Positions 2-61,757 of a DNA stretch of 64,000 nucleotides are shown one piece after another. A program made the position numbers and the translations under genes. Position 1 is the stretch's first letter; every line of letters starts with the position of its first letter. The stretch covers positions 49,476 through 113,475 of the forward strand of contig VGOM01000004.1 in assembly GCA_016875915.1 (NCBI GenBank). Direction: 5' to 3'. Origin of the DNA: Chloroflexota bacterium (lineage in GTDB: Bacteria; Chloroflexota; Dehalococcoidia; UBA2247; RBG-13-53-26). The notes beneath the pieces are model-generated. The model searched no databases and was not told the origin of the DNA. It saw only the letters and a program-made list of their open reading frames with translations.

Positions 2-442
2 ACTGATGGGGCGTGTGCCGTCCTGCTTGCTGCTGGTGACCGGGCACGCGCGCTGTGCAGGCGGCCGGCGTGGATTCGAGGACTGGCTCACCGCATCGAC
101 GTTCAGGCGCTGGGTCGTCGCGACCTGACCCACTCCGTCTCGGCGCGGCTCGCCGCGGAGGCGGCGGGGGCGATCGGAACGCCGATCGACATCGCAGAGC
201 TTCATGCTCCGTTTACTCCTCAGGACTGGATCCTGCAGCGGGAGCTGGGGATCGCGAAACGCACCATTGTCAATCCCTCGGGCGGCATTCATCAGGGGAA
301 TCCCATGATGGCTACTGGCCTCGTTCGCTTCGGCGAGGTGGCTGCACGCATCATCCGCGGGGAGGCAGACCGGGGTGTGGCTCATGCCACACAGGGGCCC
401 TGCCTGCAGCAGAACATGGTGTGCGTCCTGGAGGCTGAGTGA
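2..442 (+). CDS. Thiolase-like protein, C-terminal part (cut by window edge)
   Basis: This is the last 146 residues of a thiolase-superfamily protein whose start lies left of the window. The visible part has the DGA motif near the left edge (DGACAVLLAAG), a HAPFTPQ stretch, and the C-terminal NPSGG loop. In the usual GHP catalytic-histidine motif it reads GNP, so His is replaced by Asn, as in many SCP-x/lipid-transfer-type thiolases. It reads straight into the next thiolase gene with a TGATG stop/start overlap, so the two are probably co-translated and may form a heteromer. The Cys-containing half is not visible, so activity cannot be judged. Confidence 0.8.
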   Translation, partial: TDGACAVLLAAGDRARALCRRPAWIRGLAHRIDVQALGRRDLTHSVSARLAAEAAGAIGTPIDIAELHAPFTPQDWILQRELGIAKRTIVNPSGGIHQGNPMMATGLVRFGEVAARIIRGEADRGVAHATQGPCLQQNMVCVLEAE

Positions 443-1605
443 TGGCCAGCCGTTGCGCCGTAATCGGCATAGGACAGACGAAGCACACGGACAAGCGCCT
501 CGACGTCAATCACACCGGGATGGTCCGCGAGGCATGCAATCGTGCGCTGGAAGACGCCCGCCTGTCCTGGAAGGAAGTGGATGCCCTGGTCATTGGGAAG
601 GCACCAGACACCATCGAGGGAGTCATCTGTCCGGAGCTCTACATGGCCGAGGCTCTCGGCATGGTCGGGAAGCCGCTCTTCCGTGTTCACACGGCCGGGT
701 CGGTGGGAGGGACAACGGCGATTGTAGGCGCCGAGTTGGTACGTGCGGGCGTACACGACAAGGTTCTGGTGGTGGGCTGGCAGAAGCAGAGCGAGTCGGA
801 TATTACGTGGGCCCTATCGCCGCATCTGCCCTTTGACCCGCCGCTCATGGCAGGAGCGGGCGGCTTCTTTGCGCCCCATTTCCGGGAGTACATCCGTCGG
901 TCTGCTGCGCCGGACCACGTCGGCATCAAAGTGGCGGTGAAAGATCGCCGGCATGCCTTGAGGAATCCCTACGCTCATCTACATCAGCCAAAGGTCTGCT
1001 TTGAAGAAATCCGCGACACGCCCATGCTCTGGGACCCGCTCCGCTATGGAGAGACTTGCCCCTCGAGTGATGGCGCCTGTGCTATGGTTCTTTCCAGCGA
1101 GAAGTACGCATATCATGGTGGCACTCGCCCCGCGTGGGTCCATGCCACGGAGATGCGTTCCGAGCCCACAATCATGCCGGGACGAGATGAGGTCAACCCG
1201 CGTGCCGGACGCGACTGCGCCGCCGCGTTGTACAAGCAGGCGGGAATCACCAATCCGCGCAGGGACTTCGACTGCGCCGAGATCTACGTGGCCTTTTCAT
1301 GGTTCGAGCCGATGCTGGCTGAGACCCTGGGTTTTGCCGAACCCGGCGAAGGATGGAAACTTAGCGACTCGGGCGCCACGTCGCTGGACGAGGGCGGAGA
1401 CATCCCCTGGAACTGCTCCGGCGGCGTGCTCTCGTCCAACCCAATCGGTGCATCGGGCACCTTGCGCATGGCAGAGGCAGCGCTCCAGGTTCGAGGCCAG
1501 GCCGGGGCGCATCAGGTAGATGGAGCCCGGCTCGCCCTGGCTCATGCGCTGGGGGGTGCCTCCCAGTTCTTCGCCATGTGGATTGTGGGTAGCGAGAAGC
1601 CATAG
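442..1605 (+). CDS. SCP-x-type thiolase-like protein (no obvious nucleophilic Cys)
   Basis: A 387-residue thiolase-superfamily protein, the family's usual length. The N-terminus (MASRCAVIGIGQTKH) is typical of lipid-transfer/acetyl-CoA acetyltransferase-like members. Where classic thiolases carry the acylated Cys, it reads HTAGSVGGTT around residues 83-92, without Cys. The C-terminal motif is SSNPIGASG, with Asn in place of the catalytic His. A thiolytic role is therefore doubtful; a carbon-carbon lyase (aldolase) or a structural subunit is possible. ATG at 442 is preferred over the in-frame GTG at 439 because it matches the family N-terminus and overlaps the upstream stop. The gene heads a cluster with crotonase, DUF35 and acyl-CoA dehydrogenase genes. 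Confidence 0.8.
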   Translation: MASRCAVIGIGQTKHTDKRLDVNHTGMVREACNRALEDARLSWKEVDALVIGKAPDTIEGVICPELYMAEALGMVGKPLFRVHTAGSVGGTTAIVGAELVRAGVHDKVLVVGWQKQSESDITWALSPHLPFDPPLMAGAGGFFAPHFREYIRRSAAPDHVGIKVAVKDRRHALRNPYAHLHQPKVCFEEIRDTPMLWDPLRYGETCPSSDGACAMVLSSEKYAYHGGTRPAWVHATEMRSEPTIMPGRDEVNPRAGRDCAAALYKQAGITNPRRDFDCAEIYVAFSWFEPMLAETLGFAEPGEGWKLSDSGATSLDEGGDIPWNCSGGVLSSNPIGASGTLRMAEAALQVRGQAGAHQVDGARLALAHALGGASQFFAMWIVGSEKP

Positions 1606-1672
1606 ACACGTCGTCATGTAGACCTATTCCAGTGTGTTTGTGAAAGCACCGTATTCTGAGAGAGGAGATCGA

Positions 1673-2494
1673 ATGGACAAGAGAGATCCCAAGGCCGGAC
1701 CCGTGGTGATTGTCGAGAGGGAGGGGGCAATCCTGATCGTGACCCTGAACCGGCCCGAGAAGAAGAACGCCATCAACAGCGAGGTCATGTGCCGACTCTA
1801 TGATGCCTGGACCCAATTGAACGACGACAACGATCTCCGCGTGGGCATCCTCACGGGTAGAGGAGACACCTTCTGTGCGGGAATGGACCTTGAAGACCTG
1901 AAGAAGCTTCGCGGAGACGAGAAGACAGACGAGTGGGCTCACCGCGTCCTGAACACACCGGATCTCGCGTGGAAGGCCTGGCTCAAGGTCGGCCGGCCAA
2001 AGAAACCGATCATTCTGGCGGTCGAAGGCCATGCGCTCGCGGGCGGCACAGAGATACTGCAGGGAACCGACATTCGCGTGGCCGGAGAGAGCGCCGAGTT
2101 CGGAGTCACCGAGGTGCAGCGCGGGCTCTTCCCGCTGGCTGGTTCGACAGTGCGGCTACGGCGGCAGATGCCCTACGCGGTCGCGGCCGAGATACTTCTC
2201 GCCGGGGACGCCATACCTGCTTCGCGTGCCCATCAATTAGGGCTGGTCAACCATGTGGTGCCCGACGGGCAGGCCTTGGCCAAGGCCAAGGAGATCGCCC
2301 GGCGCATCGCGGACAACGGACCGCTCGCCGTTCAGGGCATTCTGGCGACGCTCCGCCAGACCGAGATGCTTCCCGAGGACAAGGCCTTCGAGATCGAACT
2401 GAGCTACGGCATGCCGGTGTTGATGTCCGAGGATGGGAGGGAGGGACCGCGCGCCTTCCTCGAAAAACGCAAGCCTATCTTCAAGGGCCGCTAG
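1673..2494 (+). CDS. Enoyl-CoA hydratase/isomerase (crotonase family)
   Basis: A 273-residue crotonase, expected to hydrate or isomerise enoyl-CoA thioesters in beta-oxidation. The first oxyanion-hole segment is CAGMDL and the second is HALAGGTE. Both Glu residues of classical hydratases seem present, one in AGGTE and one in GVTEVQRGLFP, so hydratase chemistry is plausible. ATG 1673 is chosen because AGAGGAG lies just upstream; an earlier in-frame start at 1634 would add 13 unconserved residues. It sits between two pairs of thiolase-like genes, which suggests it supplies a 3-hydroxyacyl-CoA for them. Substrate unknown. Confidence 0.88.
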   Translation: MDKRDPKAGPVVIVEREGAILIVTLNRPEKKNAINSEVMCRLYDAWTQLNDDNDLRVGILTGRGDTFCAGMDLEDLKKLRGDEKTDEWAHRVLNTPDLAWKAWLKVGRPKKPIILAVEGHALAGGTEILQGTDIRVAGESAEFGVTEVQRGLFPLAGSTVRLRRQMPYAVAAEILLAGDAIPASRAHQLGLVNHVVPDGQALAKAKEIARRIADNGPLAVQGILATLRQTEMLPEDKAFEIELSYGMPVLMSEDGREGPRAFLEKRKPIFKGR

Positions 2495-2620
2495 CACCTT
2501 TCCAATGCATGCAAGCAGAGAGTCGGACGTCATGATGTTTGGCGACAGCGCCATTCAATGTGGCAGCGGGGCAGGACCCCGGTCTCCGACGAACACCATC
2601 GATGACGCAGGAGGTAGCTC

Positions 2621-3778
2621 ATGAGTGCCGGGAGAGTAGCTATCGTCGGTGTTGGCTATACACCGTTCAGACCAATCACCCCTGATGTTTCATTCAGGGA
2701 GATGGTCTATGAGGCAGCTGCGAAGGCCTACGAGGATGCTGGAATTGAACCGCAGAAGGATCTAGATGCTTGTGTAACCTGCCAGGACGATTTTGAGCAT
2801 GGGAGGAGCATCTGGAATGAGCAGACGCCGGATAGTCTTGGTGCCGTTCTGAAACCGGTCGGTACTATCCCCGGAGATGGCATCTATGGTTTGATCGATG
2901 CCTATATGCAGATAAGAAGTGGGCTCAGGAACGTCGTGGTGGTGGAGACGCACAGCAAGGCATCCAATATGATCACACGGAACTACCTTCTGGCGCATGC
3001 ACCAGATCCCATCTACAACAAACCGCTGTCACAGCATCCATACTACATCGCTGGTATGGAGATGAACCGGTTCCTGTATGAGACAGGAAACACGAAAGAG
3101 CAGTGCGCGATGGTGGCCGTGAAGAACAGAAGAAATGCTCTGTCCAATCCCGTGGCGGCCTACGGACAAAAGAGCGCCGTAGAGGACGTGCTAGGATCAG
3201 AGATGATTTCCTATCCGCTTACCGAGCTCGACACAAGTAGCCATGCTGATGGAGGCATTGTCATGGTACTTGCATCCGAGGATAGAGCCAGAAGCCTTGC
3301 TGGCAAGCCGGTATGGATCAAGGGTGTGGGTTGGTGCTCCGAAACACCATGGTTGGAATCAAGGAACTGGGGAGAAGCAGTATATGCCAAGTTGGCGGCA
3401 GACATGGCGTACAGGATAGCCAAGATCAACGAGCCGCGAGAAGATATCGATTTTGCGGAGGTCGATGACACGTTTTCCTACAAGGAGCTTCAACACCTGG
3501 AAGCACTTGGACTGTGTCAGCGCGGTATGGCTGGCAGGATGACCAGTGATGGAGTGACTCAAAGACAAGGGGAGCTTCCTGTCAACGTATCCGGCGGCAG
3601 TTTGGGAGTGGGTCATCTAGTGGAAGCCACTGGTCTTCAGAAAGTCCTCGAGGTGGTGTTGCAGCTAAGGGGCGAAGCGGGCAAAAGGCAACTGGACAAC
3701 GCTAGGGTGGGTTTGGCTCAATCGTGGCGAGGTATCCCCTACGCAAGCGGCGCAGTAGCTATTCTCAGCCGTGAATAG
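2621..3778 (+). CDS. Thiolase-fold protein lacking the catalytic Cys (Ltp2/SCP-x-like)
   Basis: A 385-residue thiolase-superfamily protein. The region that should hold the nucleophilic Cys reads TIPGDGIYGL (about residues 82-91), with no Cys. The C-terminal loop SGGSLGVGHLVEATG keeps a His (about 332). A segment near 281-290 (VDDTFSYKEL) resembles the region that carries active-site tyrosines in the thiolase-like aldolase Ltp2; that assignment is by eye. It is followed after 18 bases by a second Cys-less homologue and then by two DUF35 genes, the partner family that Ltp2-type aldolases and BbsB-type thiolases need. The base composition is visibly less GC-rich than the flanking genes. ATG 2621 follows GGAGGT. 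Confidence 0.8.
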   Translation: MSAGRVAIVGVGYTPFRPITPDVSFREMVYEAAAKAYEDAGIEPQKDLDACVTCQDDFEHGRSIWNEQTPDSLGAVLKPVGTIPGDGIYGLIDAYMQIRSGLRNVVVVETHSKASNMITRNYLLAHAPDPIYNKPLSQHPYYIAGMEMNRFLYETGNTKEQCAMVAVKNRRNALSNPVAAYGQKSAVEDVLGSEMISYPLTELDTSSHADGGIVMVLASEDRARSLAGKPVWIKGVGWCSETPWLESRNWGEAVYAKLAADMAYRIAKINEPREDIDFAEVDDTFSYKELQHLEALGLCQRGMAGRMTSDGVTQRQGELPVNVSGGSLGVGHLVEATGLQKVLEVVLQLRGEAGKRQLDNARVGLAQSWRGIPYASGAVAILSRE

Positions 3779-3796
3779 GGCAAGGGAGGAGACAGC

Positions 3797-4960
3797 GTGG
3801 GTATGCGGAAAGTGGCTATCGTTGGTGCCGGGATGACGAAATTCATGCGCCGTGCTCAGGAGACAGGCAAGGAGCTCGCTTGGGAGGCAGCCAGCATGGC
3901 TCTAGACAGCTGCGGGATGACTCTGGATGGCATAGACTGCGTTGTAATGGGTACTGCCCCGGATGCCTTCGATATGATCCACATGAAGGGCGAGAATCTG
4001 ATCGATGGTGCAGGGGCATGGCGCAAACCGTACATGAGAGGCTTCGTAGGTGGTGGTACTGGGGTGTTTGTAGTGGATCAGGGTTGGTATCACGTAGCAT
4101 CAGGGCTTTTTGACACGTGCCTCGTAGTGGCTGAGGAGAAGATGTCCAGTTGTCTGCCACACCCTCAAGGTGCATTTATTACCATCTGGGATCAATTCAC
4201 GGAAAGCCCTCTTGGTCCGAGCCTATTGTGGATGTTTGCCATGGAGATGACCCGCTACATGCACGTCCATGGGATAACCGAACGTGAGATCGCTATGGTA
4301 TCAGTCAAGAATAAGAAGAATGCCATGGATCATCCCGCTGCACAGCTGCCCGCAGAGATCACGGTGGAAGACGTACTCAATTCCGAGGTAATGGCTTGGC
4401 CGGTCAAGAGGCTCGACGTCAGTCCCTCGAGCGACGGAGCGGTGGCTCTAGTACTCGCTGCTGAACCTGCTGCAAAAAGGATAACGGACAAACCTGTATG
4501 GATAGAGGGTGTTGGATGGTGTCTAGATACCTTCTATATCGGGCATCGTGATCTGTACTACCCCCGATATGTCGAGTACGCAGCGAGGCAAGCCTATGAG
4601 ATGGCAGGCATCAACGAACCTAGCAAGGAGATTGACATTGCCGAACCCTACGACCCGTTCGATTACAAAGAGCTACACAATGCGGAAGGACTGCTTCTAT
4701 GTGGCAAGGGAGAGGCACCCAAGTTGCTTGCAGATGGTGTTACACAGAGAACAGGAAGGCAACCCTGGTGTCCGTCAGGTGGAGCGTTGGGTGTTGGTAA
4801 TGCGATCGCTGCCACTGGAACAATGAAGGTGGCTGAACTCTTCTGGCAGCTTCGCGGTGAGGCAGGAAAGAGGCAAGTACCAGGAAAGCCTAGAAGGGGT
4901 GTAGCACAGGCTTGGGGGGATGAACTGCAGGTAGGTACAGTCATCGTGGTTGGGATATGA
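3797..4960 (+). CDS. Thiolase-fold protein lacking catalytic Cys and His (second of pair)
   Basis: A 387-residue thiolase-superfamily protein related to its upstream neighbour. The expected Cys site reads RGFVGGGTGV (about 81-90), and the GHP-type motif is LGVGNAIAATG, with Asn where His is usual. Tyr285 in AEPYDPFDYKEL may correspond to an active-site Tyr of Ltp2-type aldolases. GTG 3797 is chosen because GGGAGGAG ends about five bases upstream; ATG 3803 is the alternative. Its stop overlaps the ribosome-binding site of the following DUF35 gene. The tandem pair with different residue losses suggests a heteromer in which one chain is catalytic. A true thiolase role is unlikely. Confidence 0.8.
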   Translation: MGMRKVAIVGAGMTKFMRRAQETGKELAWEAASMALDSCGMTLDGIDCVVMGTAPDAFDMIHMKGENLIDGAGAWRKPYMRGFVGGGTGVFVVDQGWYHVASGLFDTCLVVAEEKMSSCLPHPQGAFITIWDQFTESPLGPSLLWMFAMEMTRYMHVHGITEREIAMVSVKNKKNAMDHPAAQLPAEITVEDVLNSEVMAWPVKRLDVSPSSDGAVALVLAAEPAAKRITDKPVWIEGVGWCLDTFYIGHRDLYYPRYVEYAARQAYEMAGINEPSKEIDIAEPYDPFDYKELHNAEGLLLCGKGEAPKLLADGVTQRTGRQPWCPSGGALGVGNAIAATGTMKVAELFWQLRGEAGKRQVPGKPRRGVAQAWGDELQVGTVIVVGI

Positions 4961-4970
4961 GGAGGTATCT

Positions 4971-5483
4971 ATGAGGAACGAAGTAGGTGAACTGCCCGGG
5001 GTGCCGCTGACCGAAAAGGACGTCCTCCACAAGAAGGTGCTATCGACAGAGTGGGATCCGAAACTGAAGTGGGCATGGGATACAGGGATAGGCTACGGTA
5101 GATACCTGAACGAGCTGAAGAAGGGTAGGATTGTTGGAAGTAAATGCAACAAGTGCAAACGTGTGTTGCTGCCCGCTCGAGCCTTTTGTGAGTTGTGCTT
5201 CCGACAGGTAGATGAGTGGGTTCATCTCAAGGATACTGGTACGGTCAACACATTCTCTATCGCATACACTGATTGGGTCGCCAGGAGGATAAAGGAGCCA
5301 CGCATTCCAGCTATGATCGAAATCGATGGTTCCGGAGGTGTCGCAATTCTGCATTTGTTGGGAGCAGTTGATCCGAAGCAAGTAAGAGTTGGACTGCGAG
5401 TCAAAGCTGTATGGAAGCCAGAGAGCCAGCGGGAAGGCGCAATAACAGATATCCTTCACTGGCTACCGATGGGGGAGGGTTAG
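4971..5483 (+). CDS. DUF35 zinc-ribbon/OB-fold acyl-CoA-associated protein (first of pair)
   Basis: A 170-residue protein of the DUF35 family: a rubredoxin-like zinc ribbon followed by an OB fold. The ribbon is CNKC, a ten-residue loop (KRVLLPARAF), then CELC, giving two Cys pairs. DUF35 proteins act as obligate or structural partners of thiolase-fold enzymes, for example with Ltp2, with BbsB, and in the archaeal thiolase/HMG-CoA synthase complex. The gene directly follows two thiolase-like genes. ATG 4971 is selected by AGGAGGT five bases upstream; an earlier TTG at 4950 would overlap the previous gene. A basic/hydrophobic N-terminal extension of roughly 55 residues precedes the ribbon. Confidence 0.87.
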   Translation: MRNEVGELPGVPLTEKDVLHKKVLSTEWDPKLKWAWDTGIGYGRYLNELKKGRIVGSKCNKCKRVLLPARAFCELCFRQVDEWVHLKDTGTVNTFSIAYTDWVARRIKEPRIPAMIEIDGSGGVAILHLLGAVDPKQVRVGLRVKAVWKPESQREGAITDILHWLPMGEG

Positions 5484-5486
5484 AGA

Positions 5487-5987
5487 GTGTCGGCAGAGAA
5501 GGTAACGCAGCTTAGTCAAACAAAACGGATGTTTGGAGAGCTGTCATTCGGGCCTCAGGACGTCAAGCTATACGGTCAGTATACATACGGCATTGCTGGA
5601 GAACGCTTCTTCAGAGAGATCAAGGACAATGGCCGAATCATGGGCACAAGATGTCAGAAATGCCAGCTAGTCTACTTGCCCCCTCGCATATACTGCGAAC
5701 GCTGCTTTGCCGAATTGAAGGAGTGGGTAGAGGTAGAGGGCAAAGGTAGAGTACACAGCTACACAGCTGTTCATGTTGATCTCGATGGCAACAGATTGAA
5801 CGAGCCAATACTAATGGCGATAGTGGAATTCCCTGGCATCTATGGTGGATTCGTTCATAAGCTCGGAGAAATCGAACCCAGGGATGTTCGTATTGGCTTG
5901 AAGGTTGAAGTGGTCCTAAAACGTGAAGAGGAGCGAGAGGGTTCCATCCTAGATATCGAGTACTTCAAGCCGGGGATGTTTGATTGA
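5487..5987 (+). CDS. DUF35 zinc-ribbon/OB-fold acyl-CoA-associated protein (second of pair)
   Basis: A 166-residue paralogue of the preceding gene, with zinc-ribbon Cys pairs CQKC and CERC separated by QLVYLPPRIY, then an OB-fold domain. It starts at GTG 5487, three bases after the upstream stop, with GGGGGAGGG as ribosome-binding site. Two thiolase-like chains followed by two DUF35 chains suggests each DUF35 is matched to its own thiolase-like partner, or that all four form one complex. The role is probably to hold acyl-CoA or stabilise the thiolase fold rather than to catalyse. The composition is less GC-rich, like the three genes before it. Confidence 0.87.
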   Translation: MSAEKVTQLSQTKRMFGELSFGPQDVKLYGQYTYGIAGERFFREIKDNGRIMGTRCQKCQLVYLPPRIYCERCFAELKEWVEVEGKGRVHSYTAVHVDLDGNRLNEPILMAIVEFPGIYGGFVHKLGEIEPRDVRIGLKVEVVLKREEEREGSILDIEYFKPGMFD

Positions 5988-6041
5988 GTCGTGCTACTTG
6001 ACCTGCCCCCCAAGAATGATCCTGTCCCATAGGCATACCGA

Positions 6042-7211
6042 ATGGCGTTGGATTTCGATCTCACAGAAGAACAGAACCTGACGCGTCGAGCCGTGCGGGA
6101 ATTCGCTGAGACGGAGATAGCACCCGTCGCGCAGGAACTGGATGAGCGCGAGGAATTCTCGGTCGAGCTCACGCAGAGAATGGCCGGGATAGGCCTTCTG
6201 GGCTGCTGCGTTCCCGACAGGTACGGCGGGGCGGGAATGGGGTACGTATCGTACATCATCGCCGTGGAGGAACTGGCCAGGATTGACGGTTCGCAGGCAG
6301 CTACGATCGCCGCAGCGAATTCCCTGGGAGTTGGACCAATCTACCAGTTTGGCAACGAAACGCAGAAGAAGGAATGGCTCCCGGGGCTCTGTTCCGGGCA
6401 GATGTTGGCTGCCTTCGGCCTGACAGAGCCTGAGGCTGGTTCCGACGCTGGAAGCTCCAAGACCACAGCAGGGCTGCGCAACGGGAGATGGGTGATAAAC
6501 GGAAGGAAGATCTTCATCACCAACTCGGCATGCCCGCTGACGGGAGTGGTAATAGTGCAGGGCGTGACCGGCTCTCGTGGCGATGGGAAGCCGGAACTGA
6601 GTTGCATACTTGTTCCCGCCGATACCCCGGGCCTGACTGCGAGAGAGATGAAAGGGAAGATGATGTGGCGGGCATCCAACACCGGGGAGCTGTCTCTCGA
6701 TGATTGCGCAGTGCCGGAAGAGAATCTCCTGGGCCAGAGAGGAGACGGTCTGCATCAGATGTTGGCTACCTTGGACAGGGGGCGCCTCAGCATAGCTGCC
6801 ATGGGGCTCGGCGGTTCCCAAGGTGCCTTCGAACTGGCTCTGCAGTATGCCAACTCACGGATCCAATTCGGCCGCCCAGTCAGCTCGTTTCAGGCAAATG
6901 CGTTCAAGCTGGCGGACATGGTCCTGGAGATCGAAGCAGCCAGGAACCTGCTCTACAAGGCATGCTGGCTTCTCGAGAAGAAGCGCTCCTTCACCGTGGA
7001 AGCGGCCATGGCCAAGCTCTACTGCTCTGAGGTGATGCACAGGTGCGCGCACAAAGCTGTGCAGTTGCATGGAGGGTATGGTCTGATGAAGGACTTCCGG
7101 GTCGAGAGACTCTACCGCGACCAGAGGCTTCTTGAGATCGGTGAGGGTGCATCGGAGATCTTGCGTATCGTGATCGCCAGGAACATCGGCGTTGCAGGCA
7201 GAGGCATGTAG
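6042..7211 (+). CDS. Acyl-CoA dehydrogenase
   Basis: A 389-residue FAD-dependent acyl-CoA dehydrogenase introducing an alpha-beta double bond into an acyl-CoA and passing electrons to ETF. The N-terminal helical domain begins LDFDLTEEQNLTRRAV. The beta domain has the FGLTEPEAGSD signature. The C-terminal signature LLEIGEGASEI places the catalytic Glu at the short-chain/medium-chain position. ATG 6042 gives the family N-terminus. It follows the DUF35 pair by 54 bases and precedes a regulator by 15 bases, so it is likely the last enzyme gene of this cluster. The GC content returns to the level of the rest of the chromosome here. Confidence 0.9.
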   Translation: MALDFDLTEEQNLTRRAVREFAETEIAPVAQELDEREEFSVELTQRMAGIGLLGCCVPDRYGGAGMGYVSYIIAVEELARIDGSQAATIAAANSLGVGPIYQFGNETQKKEWLPGLCSGQMLAAFGLTEPEAGSDAGSSKTTAGLRNGRWVINGRKIFITNSACPLTGVVIVQGVTGSRGDGKPELSCILVPADTPGLTAREMKGKMMWRASNTGELSLDDCAVPEENLLGQRGDGLHQMLATLDRGRLSIAAMGLGGSQGAFELALQYANSRIQFGRPVSSFQANAFKLADMVLEIEAARNLLYKACWLLEKKRSFTVEAAMAKLYCSEVMHRCAHKAVQLHGGYGLMKDFRVERLYRDQRLLEIGEGASEILRIVIARNIGVAGRGM

Positions 7212-55539: not shown

Positions 55540-56616
55540 TCACCCGGCAAAGCACCTCCAGTAGGGCTTGAGCGTCTCCTTCACCGACTTCACCACCTCC
55601 CTGGTCTCCGCCAGCCTGTGGTCTGTCCGCAGTGAGAACAGGAATGGCTCCTCCAGCTGCAGGTCCGGGCCGGTCGGTCCGCTGACCAGGGCCAGCCACC
55701 CCGGGGCCAGCACCGCCTGATTGTATCCGCTGCCCACCAGGTCGACCAGCCTCCCGCCGCACACCGCCTCGGCCACGGCGCCCACCTTGGCCCCGACCAT
55801 CTTCAGCCCCTTCAAGGTCAGACCCAGATCGGTCAGCTCATCGGCGAAGTGCGGATCGGACCCGCCGTTTCTGATCACCATCTCGGGCTGGAACTCCTCG
55901 GCCAGGGGCCGCACAATCTCGTCCAGCACGTATTCGTAGGCGTCGTCGGAGGCCCCCGGCGGCAGGGGCACGTTCACCGTGAACCCCGTGCCCCGCCCGT
56001 CGCCGATCTCCCTGACGAACCCGGTGCCGGGGTAGAGGGTCCGCGGGTCCTGATGGATGTCGATGAACAGCACCCTGGGCTCCTGGTAGAAGATGTGGCA
56101 GGTCCCGTCGCCGGCATGGGCATCGGTGTCCACGACCAGTATCCTCTTCGCCCCCTGGTTCTCCAGCAGGCTCCTGACGCACACCGCCACGTCGTTGTAG
56201 ATGCAGAATCCCGCTCCGTAGTCTCTGCGGGCATGATGCAGGCCGCCGCCCACGCCCACCGCATGCGCTGGTCCGCCTCTCCAGGCGGTCTCCGCCGCGG
56301 TCAGGGCGGCTCCCACGATCAGCCTGGCCGCCTCCTCCAGCCCTGGCTGGAGAGGGGTATCCGGACTGAGGAACTCCCGGCCCGGCGACCAGGCCCAGGC
56401 ACGCCCCGAGCGGAGGAAGTCCAGGTACTCCCTGTCGTGGACCAGAAGCAGCTCCTCGTCGCTGGCATACCTCGGCTCAACCACCTCGAAGTCGGCGCTG
56501 CTCACCATCCGCCGCAGCAGGTCCATGAATCGGGCATACCTGTCACCCCGGAAGGGATGACCGGGGCCGAAGTCATAGCCCTTCATCTTGTCGCTGTAGG
56601 CGATGGACAGTGTCAT
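55540..56616 (-). CDS. Histone-deacetylase-family protein (AcuC/acetylpolyamine-amidohydrolase-like)
   Basis: A 358-residue zinc-dependent deacetylase. GGGLHHARRDYGAGFCIYND carries the His pair, VVDTDAHAGDGTCHIFY carries metal ligands Asp and His, NGGSDPHFADELTDLGL carries the third Asp, and GSGYN the catalytic Tyr. In the DxDxHHGDG motif the second His is Ala, but it is not a metal ligand in the known structures. Substrates could be acetylated CoA-ligases (AcuC-like) or acetylpolyamines. The presence of many acyl-CoA genes nearby makes the first idea attractive, but it is inference. Confidence 0.87.
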   Translation of the reverse strand: MTLSIAYSDKMKGYDFGPGHPFRGDRYARFMDLLRRMVSSADFEVVEPRYASDEELLLVHDREYLDFLRSGRAWAWSPGREFLSPDTPLQPGLEEAARLIVGAALTAAETAWRGGPAHAVGVGGGLHHARRDYGAGFCIYNDVAVCVRSLLENQGAKRILVVDTDAHAGDGTCHIFYQEPRVLFIDIHQDPRTLYPGTGFVREIGDGRGTGFTVNVPLPPGASDDAYEYVLDEIVRPLAEEFQPEMVIRNGGSDPHFADELTDLGLTLKGLKMVGAKVGAVAEAVCGGRLVDLVGSGYNQAVLAPGWLALVSGPTGPDLQLEEPFLFSLRTDHRLAETREVVKSVKETLKPYWRCFAG

Positions 56617-56785: not shown

Positions 56786-57196
56786 CTAGCCCAGGTTCAT
56801 CACCCGGCCCACCGCGGTGGCCACCACCTCGCCCTTCTGATTGGTGGTCGTGGATTTCATGGAGAAGAGGACCATCTTCCGCTTCTCGTTGCTCTTGTCC
56901 TCCACGCCGTACCATTCGTTGACCACGGTGATGGTGTCACCGGCCACGATGGGCTTGAAGTACTCCAGTTCCAGGCCGGCATCGACGATGCCCGGATGTG
57001 GCCACGGCGGTGTCATCACTCCTTCGCCCATGAGCATGGCGCAGGCCAGCATCCCGGGTGGCATCCGGTTCTCCCACTTGGGGCTGGTGTCCCCGATGGC
57101 CTCGCAGTAGCGGCGGATCATGGTTCTGTCGATCTCGAACTTGGAGGGGGGGCCCTTCTTGCCGATGTATGCCTTCAGTTCTTCTACGGTGGCCAT
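56786..57196 (-). CDS. MaoC-like hot-dog dehydratase (N-terminal type)
   Basis: A 136-residue hot-dog-fold protein of the MaoC_dehydrat_N kind: FEIDRTMIRRYCEAIGDTSPKW, MPPGMLACAMLMGEG, and LELEYFKPIVAGDTITV. The catalytic Asp-His dyad of hydratase_2 is not obvious, so it may be the non-catalytic or partner half of a heterodimer, as in ChsH1/ChsH2. Last gene of the minus-strand operon, 61 bases after the thiolase. A hydratase role in the pathway is inferred from context. Confidence 0.83.
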   Translation of the reverse strand: MATVEELKAYIGKKGPPSKFEIDRTMIRRYCEAIGDTSPKWENRMPPGMLACAMLMGEGVMTPPWPHPGIVDAGLELEYFKPIVAGDTITVVNEWYGVEDKSNEKRKMVLFSMKSTTTNQKGEVVATAVGRVMNLG

Positions 57197-57257
57197 GCGG
57201 ATGTCTCCTTTCCTGTCGTCCTATTCCAGCGTGTCTGACGTATCACTCGATCCGATG

Positions 57258-58508
57258 CTACCAGGCCTTGTGCAGGATGCACGCGGCATTGTTGCCGGCG
57301 TAGCCGTACGTCTGGGCCAGTCCATTGACCAGCTTGGTCTTCTTCACCTGGCCCTCGCCGCATTCGCCACGCATCTGGCGGACGAGCTGGCAGACCTGGG
57401 ACAGCCCCTGGGCCACCACGGCCTCGCCCTGTGCCGCCACACCGCCTCCGGAGCACACCGGAAGTTCGCCGGTGATGGGGTGGACCTTGCCCGACATGAG
57501 CATCTTGTCCGCTTCGCCGGTCTTGAGGCCCAGGATGCACTCCAGATAGACCAGGTAGTGCCATGAGGAGTTGTCGGGCAGCTCGATGATGTCGATGTCT
57601 GCCGGCTGAAGTCCGGACATCTTGTAGATCGCCTTGATGGCATTGCGCGACTCCGAGAGGTCGGGCACGCCCGGCCTCGGGAAGGCCGAGCAGAAGGTCA
57701 GCCTGATCGTCGGGTCGCCGAAGGTCGGCGTGCCGATGGTGATCGCCTTCACCAGCAGCGGCTTCTTGCTGTACTTCTTGGCGTTCTCCATTGTGGTCAC
57801 GATCACGGCTGCCGCTCCGTCGGAGGTGGCGCAGATCTCGAACAGACGGAGGGGATCGGCGATGTACTTGGAGGCCTGGATCTCCTCCATGGTGAACACC
57901 TTGCGGTACCGGGCGTAGGGGTTGTGCACCGCTCCCTCGGAGGTCATGTGCTTGGCCATGGCCAGCACCTCGTCCGTGGTGCCCACGTCGTACATGCGGC
58001 GCCTCAGCTCCATGGCCCAGTAGGCCGGATTGGTCTCGCCGGTCATGCAGAACCGGATGTAGTCGGTGTCGTTCTCGCCGCCCCTGTCGAACTTGGTTGG
58101 ACTGGCGTCGCGCAGCTGGGGCCGGAAGAATCCGCCGGCGGACTTGTCGGCGGCGATGGCGATGGCGGTGTCAACGTGTCCCGAGGCCACGGCCAGGACC
58201 GCCTCTCTGAGTATGGCCTGTCCCGAGGCGCAGGCGTTGACACAGTTCACCATGGGGATGCCCGTCTCGCCCATCATCCGGGCGATGGATGTGCCCATCA
58301 GCAGAGAGGGAACCCCGCCCCGGTCGGCGATCCACATGTAGGCGCCGAAGGCTGCGCTCTGGATATCCCGCCAGGACATGTTGGCGTCCTTGAGCGCGCT
58401 GACGATGCACTCAACGCCCATGTCCTGCATTGACTTCTCGGGGAACTGGCCCCAGGGATGCTGACCGATGCCGACGATCGCAACTTCACGCATAGGTTTC
58501 ATCGTCAT
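57258..58508 (-). CDS. Thiolase-like acyltransferase with catalytic Cys, lacking the GHP His
   Basis: A 416-residue thiolase-superfamily protein. Unlike the genes at the left edge, it keeps the nucleophile region: VNCVNACASGQ, with the catalytic Cys at 93. The C-terminal motif reads CSGGGVAAQGEAVVAQG, so the usual GHP His is not there. ICATSDGAAAVIV is the DGA motif. It begins at ATG 58508 (GGAGAGC upstream), six bases after the DUF35 gene stop, so the two are surely co-translated. It could be an Ltp2-like aldolase, or a thiolase with an altered active site. Confidence 0.85.
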   Translation of the reverse strand: MTMKPMREVAIVGIGQHPWGQFPEKSMQDMGVECIVSALKDANMSWRDIQSAAFGAYMWIADRGGVPSLLMGTSIARMMGETGIPMVNCVNACASGQAILREAVLAVASGHVDTAIAIAADKSAGGFFRPQLRDASPTKFDRGGENDTDYIRFCMTGETNPAYWAMELRRRMYDVGTTDEVLAMAKHMTSEGAVHNPYARYRKVFTMEEIQASKYIADPLRLFEICATSDGAAAVIVTTMENAKKYSKKPLLVKAITIGTPTFGDPTIRLTFCSAFPRPGVPDLSESRNAIKAIYKMSGLQPADIDIIELPDNSSWHYLVYLECILGLKTGEADKMLMSGKVHPITGELPVCSGGGVAAQGEAVVAQGLSQVCQLVRQMRGECGEGQVKKTKLVNGLAQTYGYAGNNAACILHKAW

Positions 58509-58514
58509 GCTCTC

Positions 58515-58937
58515 CTATTTCTCCACCGGCTTCCACATCCAGGTGATGTACTCGTTCTCCGCATCCTCATAGAGCTTGCCCACCGTCATCTCCACCGCCT
58601 GCCCGATCTTCAGGCCCTCGGTGGTTGTGGTCATGCCCAGCACCCGCATCCCCTCCGGGACGTCCACCATGGCCACTCCGTAGGGCTTGAACGGCTCCAT
58701 CCTGAAGGGATGGGCCGGCTGGGCCGTGTGGATGGTGAAGGTGTACATCTTGCCGGTGTTGCTCAGCGGCACCACTTCCATGTTGGCCTTGTCCTTGGGG
58801 CAGTCGGGGTTGCCGCAATAGGCCACCTTGGGGAAGAAATACGAGCCGCACTTCTTGCACTTGCTTGCTAGGAGCTGGGGTTTCTGGGAGGGCCAGGTAA
58901 AGAGCCCCTCGATGATCGGTACTTGCTGCTTGGCCAT
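58515..58937 (-). CDS. DUF35 zinc-ribbon/OB-fold partner of the thiolase
   Basis: A 140-residue DUF35 protein, with ribbon Cys pairs CKKC and a later CGNPDC separated by GSYFFPKVAY, then an OB fold (VPLSNTGKMYTFTIH, KPYGVAMVDVPEGMRV). The second Cys pair has three residues between, a common variant. Directly upstream of the thiolase-like gene with which it should form a complex, as DUF35 does with Ltp2 in steroid degradation. Shorter than the DUF35 pair near 5 kb because it lacks their N-terminal extension. Confidence 0.88.
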   Translation of the reverse strand: MAKQQVPIIEGLFTWPSQKPQLLASKCKKCGSYFFPKVAYCGNPDCPKDKANMEVVPLSNTGKMYTFTIHTAQPAHPFRMEPFKPYGVAMVDVPEGMRVLGMTTTTEGLKIGQAVEMTVGKLYEDAENEYITWMWKPVEK

Positions 58938-58975
58938 ACGCTGCTCTCCTTTCTGAGTTCGTTGCGCCCGCTATG

Positions 58976-60103
58976 CTAAAGCCCTATCTCTTTGGCCACG
59001 AACCGCCGCTGGAACCGGGAGTCGCCCAGGGCGAACTCGTAGGTCTTGGCCCGCCGCGAATACAGCGGCAGGTCATGGTCCTCGCAGAAGCCGATGGCTC
59101 CGTGGCACTGGTGCGCCAGGTCGCAGATCCTCTTGTAGGCCTGGCCGCTCCAGGCCTTGGCCACGGCCGCCTCCTTGGCGAACGGCTGGTTGTCGCCGGC
59201 CTTCCATGCCGCCAGGTAGGTGACGTATCTCATCCCCTCCAAATCGATCATCATGTTGGCGCAGTGATGCTGTATTGCCTGCAGGCTGCCGATGGGGTGG
59301 TCGAACTGCACCCTCTCCTTGACGTAGGTCACCGTCATGTCCATCACCTGCTGCGCCCCGCCCAGCATCTCGGCGCACTTGAGCACCGTGGCCAGCTCCA
59401 CCAGCTTCCTGATGTTGTCCTTCCCGGTGTGCGTCTCTCCCAGCCTGTTGCCCTCGGGGACCCTCACCCCCTGGAAGGCCACCTGGTACTGCTTGTCCCC
59501 GGCTATGGTCTCGATGGGCTGCCGGATCACCCCCTTGGCCCCGGACTCCACCAGGAAGAGGTCGATGCCTTCCTGCCTCCCGTCGTGCTTGGTCCGGGCG
59601 GCGCACAACATCAGGTCGGCCACATGGGCGTTCTCCACGAACAGCTTGGTCCCGCTGATGACGTACTCGTTCCCCTCTGCGCTGGCCTGGCATTCCAGGT
59701 GGTCCAGCTCATAGCCGGTGCCCGGCTCTGAGAAGGCGCTGGTCAGGATGAGCTTGCCCGAGGCTATCTTGGGGAGCAGCTCCTGCTGTTGCCGGGCGCT
59801 GCCCAGCCTCATGACGGCCAGCGTGCCCATCAGCGATGAGTGGAACGGTCCGGGCAGGCAGGCCCTCCCCAGTTCCTCCACCAGGGCCACCGCGTCCAGG
59901 AAGCTCCCGCCTATGCCCCCGAACTGCTCGGGGATGATCAGCCCCGGCCAGCCCAGCTCGGCGATCTTGTTCCATAGCTCGGTGGTGTGGCCCTTCTCGT
60001 CCTTGATCATCTTCCTGACCGTGTCCTTGGGGCACTCGGTGGCCAGGAAGTCCCGGGCTATCTTGCGCAGCATCTCTTGCTCTTCAGTGAAGGCGAAATC
60101 CAT
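58976..60103 (-). CDS. Acyl-CoA dehydrogenase-like protein, FadE-type subunit (no C-terminal Glu)
   Basis: A 375-residue acyl-CoA dehydrogenase-fold protein. MDFAFTEEQEMLRKIARDF and LGWPGLIIPEQFGGIGGSFLD are family typical, but AFSEPGTGYELDHLEC departs from the TEPxAGSD motif, and the C-terminus reads YEFALGDSRFQRRFVA, without the EGT catalytic site. It resembles the non-catalytic partners of heterotetrameric FadE pairs in actinobacterial steroid catabolism. The catalytic partner is probably the following (upstream) gene. Gap to that gene is 18 bases. Confidence 0.87.
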   Translation of the reverse strand: MDFAFTEEQEMLRKIARDFLATECPKDTVRKMIKDEKGHTTELWNKIAELGWPGLIIPEQFGGIGGSFLDAVALVEELGRACLPGPFHSSLMGTLAVMRLGSARQQQELLPKIASGKLILTSAFSEPGTGYELDHLECQASAEGNEYVISGTKLFVENAHVADLMLCAARTKHDGRQEGIDLFLVESGAKGVIRQPIETIAGDKQYQVAFQGVRVPEGNRLGETHTGKDNIRKLVELATVLKCAEMLGGAQQVMDMTVTYVKERVQFDHPIGSLQAIQHHCANMMIDLEGMRYVTYLAAWKAGDNQPFAKEAAVAKAWSGQAYKRICDLAHQCHGAIGFCEDHDLPLYSRRAKTYEFALGDSRFQRRFVAKEIGL

Positions 60104-60121
60104 ATCTGTCCTTCTCCCCCT

Positions 60122-61303
60122 CTAGCTCCTGGGCAGCCCCAGACCCCTGAGGGCGATGGTGGTTCGCTGGATCTCCGAAGTGCCGCCGGCCAGGCTGATC
60201 CCCCTGCAGAAGACGTAGAGGAACAGGAATCTCTTCCTCAGCCGGGCCCACTTGGAGCCGTCTTCGAGCTGTATCTCCGGGCCCAGTATGTCCAGGCCGG
60301 CGCTGGCGATCTTCTGTCCCAGCTCGTCCGCCAGGACCTTGACCACTGAGGACTCCCAGCTGATGCTGGCTCCCTTGTTCAGCAGCCAGGCCGCCTTGTA
60401 GTTCAACATCCGGCTGACCTCCAGCTCGACGGCCAGCTCGGCCAGCGTGTCCCGGATGGTCTGGTTGTCCTTCAGACGGTGCCCGTCGTACTTGGACTCA
60501 TTGACGTATTCCACCAGCTCTTCCAGGTCCCGCTTGCTGCCCGCATGCCTCAGGCATCGGCCCCAGAACCTGTCCCCTTCCAGGGCTTCGAAGACCAGGG
60601 GCAGCCCCCGGTTCTCCTGTCCCAGCAGGTACTTCTTGTGGACCCGGACATCCTCCAGGAATATCTCCGTGAACGACTTGGCCCCGGCCATGTCCACGAT
60701 GGGGTTCACCGTCACCCCGGGGCTCCTCACGTCCACCAGGAAGGTGCTCAGTCCTCTGGACTTGGGGGCGTCGGGGTCGGTCCGGGCCAGGAGCAGACAC
60801 CACTCCGCCAGATGGGCCCCGGTGGGCCAGATCTTCTGTCCGTTGATGACGTAGTAGTCGCCGTCCTTGATCGCCCGGGTGGCCGTGTTGAGCAGATCGG
60901 AGCCCGCCCCCGGCTCGCTCAGGCCGGTGGAGAACAGTATCTCTGCCTTGGCCATCCTGGGCAGGAACTCCTGCTTCTGGTCCTCGGTGCCGTAGCGCAG
61001 CACCCCGGTGGCCACGGCGTCGCCGAACAGATGGCCGTACTGCGGCGCTCTGTGATAGGCCAGTTCCTCGGCGGCCACGAAGCGTTCCATCGTGGTGCCG
61101 CCCATCCCCCCGTACTCCTTGGGCCAGGCGATGGACAGCCAGCCCTTCTGGCCCAGCCGCGTGGTGAATGCCCGCGACCAGCCGCCGAAGCCGTAGCCTT
61201 CATCCTCAATCTCGCAGGGGAAGGTCTCCGGCGGCTCCTTCTGACAGAACTCCCTCACTTCTTGGCGGAGCTTCTCTTCCTGTTCGGAGAATCGAAAATC
61301 CAT
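60122..61303 (-). CDS. Acyl-CoA dehydrogenase, FadE-type, likely catalytic subunit
   Basis: A 393-residue acyl-CoA dehydrogenase. GWLSIAWPKEYGGMGGT, TGLSEPGAGSDLLNTATRA and VINGQKIWPTGAH are the canonical FadE-type motifs; the C-terminus reads GISLAGGTSEIQRTTIA, with no Glu before GT. A base on helix G is likely (Glu239 or Glu242 in VFEALEGDRFWG), as in the FadE26-type subunits of steroid alpha2beta2 enzymes. It starts six bases after the flavin-reductase-like gene. It is likely paired with the next gene. Confidence 0.89.
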   Translation of the reverse strand: MDFRFSEQEEKLRQEVREFCQKEPPETFPCEIEDEGYGFGGWSRAFTTRLGQKGWLSIAWPKEYGGMGGTTMERFVAAEELAYHRAPQYGHLFGDAVATGVLRYGTEDQKQEFLPRMAKAEILFSTGLSEPGAGSDLLNTATRAIKDGDYYVINGQKIWPTGAHLAEWCLLLARTDPDAPKSRGLSTFLVDVRSPGVTVNPIVDMAGAKSFTEIFLEDVRVHKKYLLGQENRGLPLVFEALEGDRFWGRCLRHAGSKRDLEELVEYVNESKYDGHRLKDNQTIRDTLAELAVELEVSRMLNYKAAWLLNKGASISWESSVVKVLADELGQKIASAGLDILGPEIQLEDGSKWARLRKRFLFLYVFCRGISLAGGTSEIQRTTIALRGLGLPRS

Positions 61304-61309
61304 GGGCCT

Positions 61310-61702
61310 CTATCCTTTTTGGGCCGTCTTCATCGGAGGCATGATGGACACCTCTTCGACGGCCACCTTGATGGCGTAGCGGACCTTCATCTTCAGCGGG
61401 GCGAACTGGGCCTTGAAGGACTCCAGCAGGTCGCCGGAGTCGAGGATCTCCGCCTTGCCCTCGATTCTGCAGCCGCCCCAGGTAGCCGGGTCGAAGACCA
61501 TGATGGCCACTTGGGGGTTCTCCTTCAGATTGGCCAGGGTCTTGGGCGAGGCTATCTCTGCAAATGCGACATGTTCGTCATCGAGGACTCGGAGGGAACC
61601 CTTGGGGGAGGCGTTTGGCTTACCGTTCTTGCTTGCTGTGGCCACGAAAGCTGGTTGGACTGAGCTGATGATCTTCTTGGCTTCTTCGGGTAGTCTGGCC
61701 GT
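61310..61702 (-). CDS. Pyridoxamine-5'-phosphate-oxidase-like flavoprotein (probable ACG start)
   Basis: A roughly 130-residue split-barrel flavin-binding protein. Conserved parts are ARLPEEAKKIISSVQPAFVA, TASKNGKPNASPKGSLRVL, and HVAFAEIASPKTLANLKENP. The first conserved stretch is encoded upstream of the first in-frame GTG (61645). No ATG, GTG or TTG is available there, but ACG 61702 lies seven bases after AGGAGAGGAGG, and a promoter ends about 25 bases before it. An ACG start is therefore my best reading; a base error is the alternative. First gene of the ACAD-DUF35-thiolase-MaoC operon. It may reduce or protect a flavin or quinone. Confidence 0.7.
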   Translation of the reverse strand, partial: TARLPEEAKKIISSVQPAFVATASKNGKPNASPKGSLRVLDDEHVAFAEIASPKTLANLKENPQVAIMVFDPATWGGCRIEGKAEILDSGDLLESFKAQFAPLKMKVRYAIKVAVEEVSIMPPMKTAQKG

Positions 61703-61727: not shown

Positions 61728-61757
61728 ATTCTAGCACTTGGCGGTTGCGGAAGGCAA
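61728..61757 (-). promoter_or_regulatory. Promoter of the flavoprotein-ACAD-DUF35-thiolase-MaoC operon
   Basis: On the minus strand, TTGCCT (61752-61757), an 18-base spacer and TAGAAT (61728-61733). The transcript would begin near 61721, leaving about 19 bases before the proposed ACG start. Confidence 0.55.

Follow-up and report, generated by a model that had tools for sequence, protein, structure and literature searches.

What would a gene cluster that resembles the igr side-chain module do when its presumed carbon-carbon lyase is without active-site residues of the known thiolases and of the known steroid aldolases alike? The question is raised by six genes in a window of 64,000 nucleotides (the whole stretch analysed; positions 49476-113475 of contig C4) from a metagenome-assembled genome (MAG) of 2.16 Mb that is 93% complete. 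The titles of the nearest named relatives agree with the Chloroflexota setting given in the original prediction, and the six tightly packed minus-strand genes that it described were confirmed: Pfam identifies, from 61702 down to 56786, a PPOX-type flavoprotein (PF01243) in the leading place claimed for it, two acyl-CoA dehydrogenases (ACADa and ACADb), a DUF35 protein, a thiolase-like protein and a MaoC protein, with gaps of 6, 18, 38, 6 and 61 nt. The cluster is real and conserved; it belongs to the igr type, lacks one half-enzyme and has a lyase with a rewired site. As its function, we tentatively favour, at a little less than an even chance, one side-chain-shortening round on a bulky or branched acyl-CoA, ending in a Cys-based thiolytic cleavage of a C-C bond. 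The genes and residues concerned are as follows.

61310..61702, minus strand, PPOX-type flavoprotein (PF01243, 75.3 bits)
60122..61303, minus strand, acyl-CoA dehydrogenase (ACAD) subunit a, predicted catalytic, Asp244 at the base position (Pfam, PDB matches, tree)
58976..60103, minus strand, ACAD subunit b, without a base at the helix G or helix K position (Pfam, PDB matches, tree)
58515..58937, minus strand, DUF35 protein, zinc ribbon and OB fold (PF12172 and PF01796, above cut-off)
57258..58508, minus strand, candidate thiolase-fold C-C lyase, clade F1 (PF22691, alignments, trees)
58230..58232, minus strand, codon of Cys93, the thiolase nucleophile position, in NACASG (121/121 rows; alignment with solved thiolases)
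57558..57578, minus strand, PDNSSWH, residues 311-317, replacing HDCF/HDAF/YDHF/YDCY (alignments)
57423..57428, minus strand, Gly361-Glu362, replacing the thiolase Gly-His (alignments)
56786..57196, minus strand, HadA/ChsH2-N-type MaoC (PF13452, 48.9 bits)
57074-57076, minus strand, codon of MaoC Trp41, at the catalytic-His position (alignment)

Alignment of the thiolase-like protein with solved thiolases showed that the nucleophile Cys93 is kept, while HDAF/HDCF is replaced by PDNS and GH by GE. Across the window protein and the best 120 of 4,122 hits, Cys93, Pro311, Asp312, Asn313, Trp316, His317 and Glu362 were each fixed in 121/121 rows, position 314 was Ser or Thr, and Cys352 was found in 112/121 rows. 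Cys93 is predicted to be an active nucleophile. The genome encodes further thiolase-like proteins; of the 13 examined, six keep the Cys, HDCF and GH, and seven are without the Cys. The AlphaFold2 (AF2) model of the window protein presents a mean predicted local confidence (pLDDT) of 78.8 and a predicted template-modelling score (pTM) of 0.85, with residues 128-160 poorly modelled. In a fold search with this model the nearest structures were BbsB (7pxp) and an archaeal thiolase (6esq); PhlC and CsATase, which are DUF35-partnered acyltransferases, were among ranks 13-16, and Ltp2 and Sal came at ranks 20 and 36, respectively. Both the sequence and the fold of the protein resemble thiolases with a DUF35 partner (BbsB, archaeal acetoacetyl-CoA thiolase) more closely than they do Ltp2. 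The thiolase fold beside a DUF35 gene, as originally proposed, is thus present, but the Ltp2 identity could not be kept, PDNS and GE being found instead of YDHF.

The same mixture of likeness and difference is seen with each characterised enzyme. The benzoylsuccinyl-CoA thiolase BbsAB and the archaeal acetoacetyl-CoA thiolase have, as in the window, a DUF35 protein beside a thiolase fold with a nucleophile Cys, but they keep HDAF/HDCF and GH where the window protein has PDNS and GE. SCP2-type thiolases are defined by Cys, HDCF/HDAF and GH, of which Cys93 only is kept in the window and the other two are replaced. The Ltp2 aldolase presents YDHF, with a Tyr base and a His, whereas the window protein presents PDNS, its P, D and N fixed in 121/121 rows. 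The bile acid aldolase Sal-Shy of Comamonas testosteroni also associates a thiolase fold with DUF35; however, in the accessible part of its description Sal has a Gly for the nucleophile Cys and a YDCY motif (PMC12329534), compared with Cys93 and PDNS here.

The thiolase alignment was used to scan named genomes; of the 232 relatives retrieved, the best 80 were studied as loci (L numbers). They divide into clade F1, with PDN (28 loci), and clade F2, with YDL (52 loci). F1 is found in Chloroflexota, two archaea (L012, L013), Desulfarculus-/Desulfobacteraceae-type bacteria, Acidimicrobiia and Bacillota MAGs, and F2 in Myxococcota, delta- and gammaproteobacteria, Acidobacteria and Acidimicrobiia. 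A tree of 42 rows united F1 and F2 in a single clade (100/100), with F2 supported at 100/100 and F1 at 96/88. F2 forms the core of the NCBIfam family PRK06059, 'lipid-transfer protein' (L037 scores 707 bits); it is like the window protein in its GE, its Cys, the DUF35 gene beside it in 52/52 loci and, often, an ACAD pair, but has YDLS where the window protein has PDNS-x-WH. The window protein scores 328.8 bits with this family, below the cut-off of 424, as does its F1 relative L013 (377.5), while L019 (437.3), L030 (451.1) and L020 (455.7) score above it. On a plasmid of Sphingopyxis sp. FD7 (L089), an F1-like protein with the Cys and GE kept reads ADNSVWQ, which indicates that neither Pro311 nor His317 is universal. 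The row of MaoC, unassigned protein, DUF35 and F1-like genes at L089 was considered as a case of split ChsH1-ChsH2, but serves only as a loose parallel: the first MaoC has the His and an Arg at the Asp place, and the second protein gave no match in Pfam.

The DUF35 protein has its zinc-ribbon residues at Cys27, Cys30, Cys41 and Cys46. Its PDB matches were, in order, 6esq_E, BbsA (7pxp_A) and the DUF35 domain of ChsH2 (6ok1_B), which partner the 6esq thiolase, BbsB and Ltp2, respectively; the protein corresponds, as a stand-alone unit, to the C-terminal domain of ChsH2. The claim that MaoC and DUF35 are here separate genes and not a fused ChsH2 is borne out by the Pfam and PDB matches. Such a split design can work, since the available text on C. 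testosteroni reports that the MaoC and DUF35 parts of ChsH2, expressed separately, keep both activities (PMC12502768). A DUF35 gene adjoins the thiolase-like gene in 78/80 loci, i.e. all those of F2 and 26/28 of F1. In the window the two genes are in frame and 6 nt apart, so that their products can be modelled as a single chain; this model gave a pTM of 0.69, compared with 0.85 for the thiolase alone, which speaks neither for nor against their contact.

The MaoC protein was compared with 44 relatives, from a protein search that reaches close relatives only, three rows being too short to use. At the catalytic-His position, Trp41 in the window, a Trp is present in 42/42 rows reaching it, and at the catalytic-Asp position there are 38 Asp and 4 Glu among these rows. 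With Trp41 in place of the His, no canonical hydratase is encoded in the cluster. ChsH2 itself presents a Tyr at this position and is the non-catalytic half, as stated in the accessible portion of PMC11321319. The other MaoC genes of the genome lie on contigs C6 and C21, with one pair on C9, where a W-type MaoC, 40% identical to that of the window, adjoins a MaoC with Asp and His intact (GDFFELHYD). This arrangement suggests that, at another locus of this genome, the W-type is paired with a catalytic half. Most simply, the window MaoC would be a non-catalytic half whose partner lies outside the cluster, and we infer that the two would meet.

For ACADa, the top PDB matches, each one a subunit of an ACAD pair, were 4x28_A (214 bits) and then Tcur3483 of 6WY9 (171 bits). 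In a 51-row tree, for which the PDB references comprised one alpha-type chain and left out the beta chains 4x28_D and Tcur3481, ACADa grouped with Tcur3483 and other pair-A subunits (clade of 24 rows, 100/100), and ACADb with pair-B subunits (clade of 23 rows, 100/97). A separate 4-row group (100/99) was formed by four further ACADs of this genome, assumed to be homomeric, while a fifth, on C9, went with the pair-B rows. Both window ACADs stand apart from those four and do not go with independent homomeric families, and the alpha2beta2-type pair of the original prediction agrees, at the sequence level, with their place among paired subunits. Asp244 of ACADa aligns with Glu247 of 4x28_A, which we take to be the catalytic base, and Glu242 lies two residues upstream. 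Position 244 is Asp in 61/61 relatives of at least 77% identity; in the remaining 59 of the best 120 of 7,927 hits it is Asp in 43 and Glu in 16. ACADb has an Ala at the helix-G and a Leu at the helix-K base position, both known places for the base, and so the distinction of one catalytic and one non-catalytic subunit holds, although the helix-G Glu assigned to the former turned out to be Asp244. These data support ACADa and ACADb as a heteromeric-type pair with one predicted catalytic and one predicted non-catalytic subunit. On C9 (25.8-28.8 kb, L093), an HMG-CoA-synthase-like gene (HMG, 3-hydroxy-3-methylglutaryl), a thiolase and a DUF35 gene stand beside a divergent ACAD of the pair-B, non-catalytic type; in the stretch listed, a pair-A ACAD gene was not found.

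The full order PPOX-ACADa-ACADb-DUF35-thiolase-MaoC is kept in 5/80 loci (L009, L010, L011, L014 and L017), all of them Chloroflexota/Dehalococcoidia by title; in L009, ACADb reads as two open reading frames. Relatives of the MaoC occur in none of the 80 loci beyond these five and L024, the sequence of which begins within the thiolase gene and keeps the MaoC. The genes upstream of the cluster differ between relatives.

Compared with igr (ChsE1-ChsE2, ChsH1-ChsH2 and Ltp2 in actinobacteria, ORF40-44 in C. testosteroni), the window cluster is alike in its ACAD pair, ChsH2-type MaoC predicted to be non-catalytic, DUF35 and thiolase-fold protein. It differs in that ChsH1 is missing, ChsH2 is in two genes, ACADa has Asp for Glu, YDHF is absent and a PPOX gene is added. 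The proposal of a near-identical igr enzyme set was rejected, because ChsH1 and the Tyr/His residues of Ltp2 and Tyr/Cys residues of Sal are absent. Nor would this be the first igr outside Actinobacteria, an idea that we rejected since a counterpart in C. testosteroni is already published, as the accessible part of PMC12502768 indicates.

In the reading that we favour, ACADa and ACADb would form an alpha2beta2 acyl-CoA dehydrogenase with Asp244 as the base. The ChsH2-like MaoC may be the substrate-binding, non-catalytic half, as ChsH2 is with its Tyr, the catalytic MaoC coming from elsewhere in the genome, and the hydratase and the 3-hydroxyacyl-CoA dehydrogenase (3HCDH) would likewise be supplied from other loci. 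DUF35 is predicted to dock on the thiolase-fold protein, which would cleave the C-C bond through a covalent acyl-Cys93 intermediate in a retro-Claisen (thiolytic) step, with Glu362 and the Asp312-Asn313-Trp316-His317 loop replacing the function of the missing His and Cys.

Several observations weigh against this scheme. The side-chain-shortening round is not wholly encoded here: no catalytic MaoC (ChsH1, with its Asp/His dyad) is present in the cluster, where the Trp41 protein is the only MaoC, and Pfam detected no 3HCDH among the six genes, a lack that is shared with igr and favours a retro-aldol cleavage. The acid/base residues of thiolases (HDCF, GHP) are replaced, and the Gln found for His317 in L089 speaks against a role of this residue. 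The top PDB matches of ACADb are single-type ACADs (1ukw, 169 bits), 4x28_D (131) and Tcur3481 (130) appearing only at ranks 20 and 21. None of the six proteins reaches an NCBIfam cut-off. Moreover, 23/28 F1 loci have no ACAD pair directly upstream, so that F1 thiolases are not bound to a dehydrogenation of the igr type; the neighbours of F1 genes, labelled by Pfam with one member run per group, include a 3HCDH in 4, a methylmalonyl-CoA-mutase-like enzyme in 5 and a thiamine pyrophosphate (TPP) enzyme in 4 of the 28 loci. An acyl-CoA-synthetase-like ATP-grasp pair is also found near F1 genes in 3/28 loci.

An igr-like retro-aldol module, in which dehydrogenation by the ACADs and hydration with a borrowed MaoC would lead to a ketone-free cleavage, Asp312, Asn313 and Glu362 serving for the Tyr-based acid/base pair, is in our judgement unlikely but must be taken seriously. 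Besides the 3HCDH missing as in igr, it gains from the sister clade F2, whose YDLS includes the Tyr found in the motif of aldolases and which has both ACAD types at most 4 kb upstream in 21/52 loci. In addition, the GH position (Glu362), 50-51 residues past the motif, corresponds by spacing, and not by direct alignment, to the acid Tyr344 of Ltp2 as described in the available part of PMC12329534. However, the motif Tyr itself is absent, with Pro in 121/121 rows, and in sequence and fold the protein resembles thiolases more than it does Ltp2 or Sal. We prefer the thiolytic cleavage because Cys93 is retained, while C. testosteroni Sal is without it, and because 3HCDHs occur near F1 genes.

That ordinary genes of branched- or short-chain fatty acid oxidation became adjacent by chance is somewhat less probable to us, even in a genome rich in such genes (21 thiolase and 18 DUF35 matches), as the six-gene order is held in five Chloroflexota loci, the MaoC family comprises only 44 tight relatives in a search of close reach, and both ACADs group with paired types. 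A condensing or acyl-transferring enzyme with a PhlC- or HMG-CoA-synthase-like acyl-Cys, in a biosynthetic or carbon-shuttling cluster, is suggested by PhlC and CsATase among the fold matches and by the mutase-like (5/28) and TPP (4/28) enzymes near other F1 genes, but we regard it as quite unlikely given that the ACAD pair and the six-gene order indicate oxidation and that Pfam found no acyl carrier protein, ketoreductase or transport gene among the six.

An F1 thiolase and DUF35 lie near a methylmalonyl-CoA-mutase-like enzyme with a B12 subunit in L016, L022, L030, L032, L033 (B12 subunit only) and L035, and four of these loci also have a TPP enzyme; they are possibly another route using the same lyase.

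Concerning the substrate, the F2 loci L048 and L073 have as neighbours a CoA-transferase pair, an NMO-family protein, an enoyl-CoA hydratase (ECH), a thiolase and a short-chain dehydrogenase/reductase (SDR). The last three score above the cut-offs of PRK07938 (355.7/260), PRK07801 (713.7/591) and PRK07856 (391/255), which we take to be EchA20, FadA6 and an SDR of steroid C/D-ring degradation. One CoA-transferase gene of this pathway is ipdAB, according to the accessible text of PMC5380842. In view of these neighbours F2 enzymes probably belong to steroid gene clusters; the HsaA-like protein of L041 remains under its cut-off (300/450). In the window's own genome, HsaC has no match in the 93% complete MAG, and none of 18 ECH matches is above the PRK07938 cut-off. 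Contig C21 carries a CoA-transferase pair, with an alpha subunit 37% identical to its F2-cluster counterpart, in one stretch (L095) with two ECH genes, a 3HCDH-like gene, an ACAD, a catalytic-type MaoC and thiolase/DUF35 pairs, which makes some breakdown of ring acids by this genome possible. Sterane-, hopane- or isoprenoid-type acids as substrates are guesses.

The literature searched, which covered few subscription papers, held no description of this cluster and none of a steroid side-chain acyl-CoA dehydrogenase of Chloroflexota. For SAR202 Chloroflexota, sterol side-chain oxidation with CYP125 has been proposed, in an accessible text that does not name thiolase or acyl-CoA dehydrogenase by these words (PMC5395668), and the available part of another study reports no hsaC in its Chloroflexi hits (PMC5790920).

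If the thiolytic reading is right, uncultured sediment Chloroflexota would have the genes to shorten the side chains of polycyclic or branched acids that lie buried, in a module carrying such database labels as 'lipid-transfer protein' or 'acetyl-CoA acetyltransferase'. A thiolase-fold family to which the literature covered assigns no chemistry can be tested for by its PDNS-x-WH/GE signature, and the presence of F1 in archaea raises the question of the ancestral reaction. A bolder idea, to which we give only a slim chance, is that F1 is a new catalytic class of C-C lyase (Cys93, Glu362 and the PDNS-x-WH loop, an HMG-CoA-synthase-like Cys/Glu/His set), common to archaea and bacteria, that sediment Chloroflexota would have built into an oxygen-free, igr-like machine trimming the side chains of polycyclic or isoprenoid acids, for instance sterane and hopane remains.

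A promoter scan found one further feature upstream of the operon.

61728..61757, minus strand, promoter-like site TTGCCT-18-TAGAAT (promoter scan)

The scan of the region gave 2 promoter-like sites compared to 0.9 ± 0.9 in shuffles, which is weak alone. TAGAAT is found at the equivalent place in 4/5 relatives compared (L009, L010, L014, L017), and L011 has TAAAAT. The PPOX gene presents ACG at its start position, six bases after a perfect AGGAGG (61714-61709); L009, L010 and L011 have ACG as well, and L014 and L017 have ATG. This ACG is possibly a conserved non-standard start codon.

Downstream, the cluster is followed in the window by a histone-deacetylase-like gene (55540-56616). In 5/28 F1 loci (L010, L011, L014, L017 and L024) a DnaJ-like and then a histone-deacetylase-like gene lie downstream; the DnaJ-like gene is missing from the window, and the pair says little on function. 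A second cluster of the window (439-7211, plus strand) contains an enoyl-CoA hydratase-like gene, an ACAD, two DUF35-type genes and three thiolase-like genes, whose products are without the nucleophile Cys.

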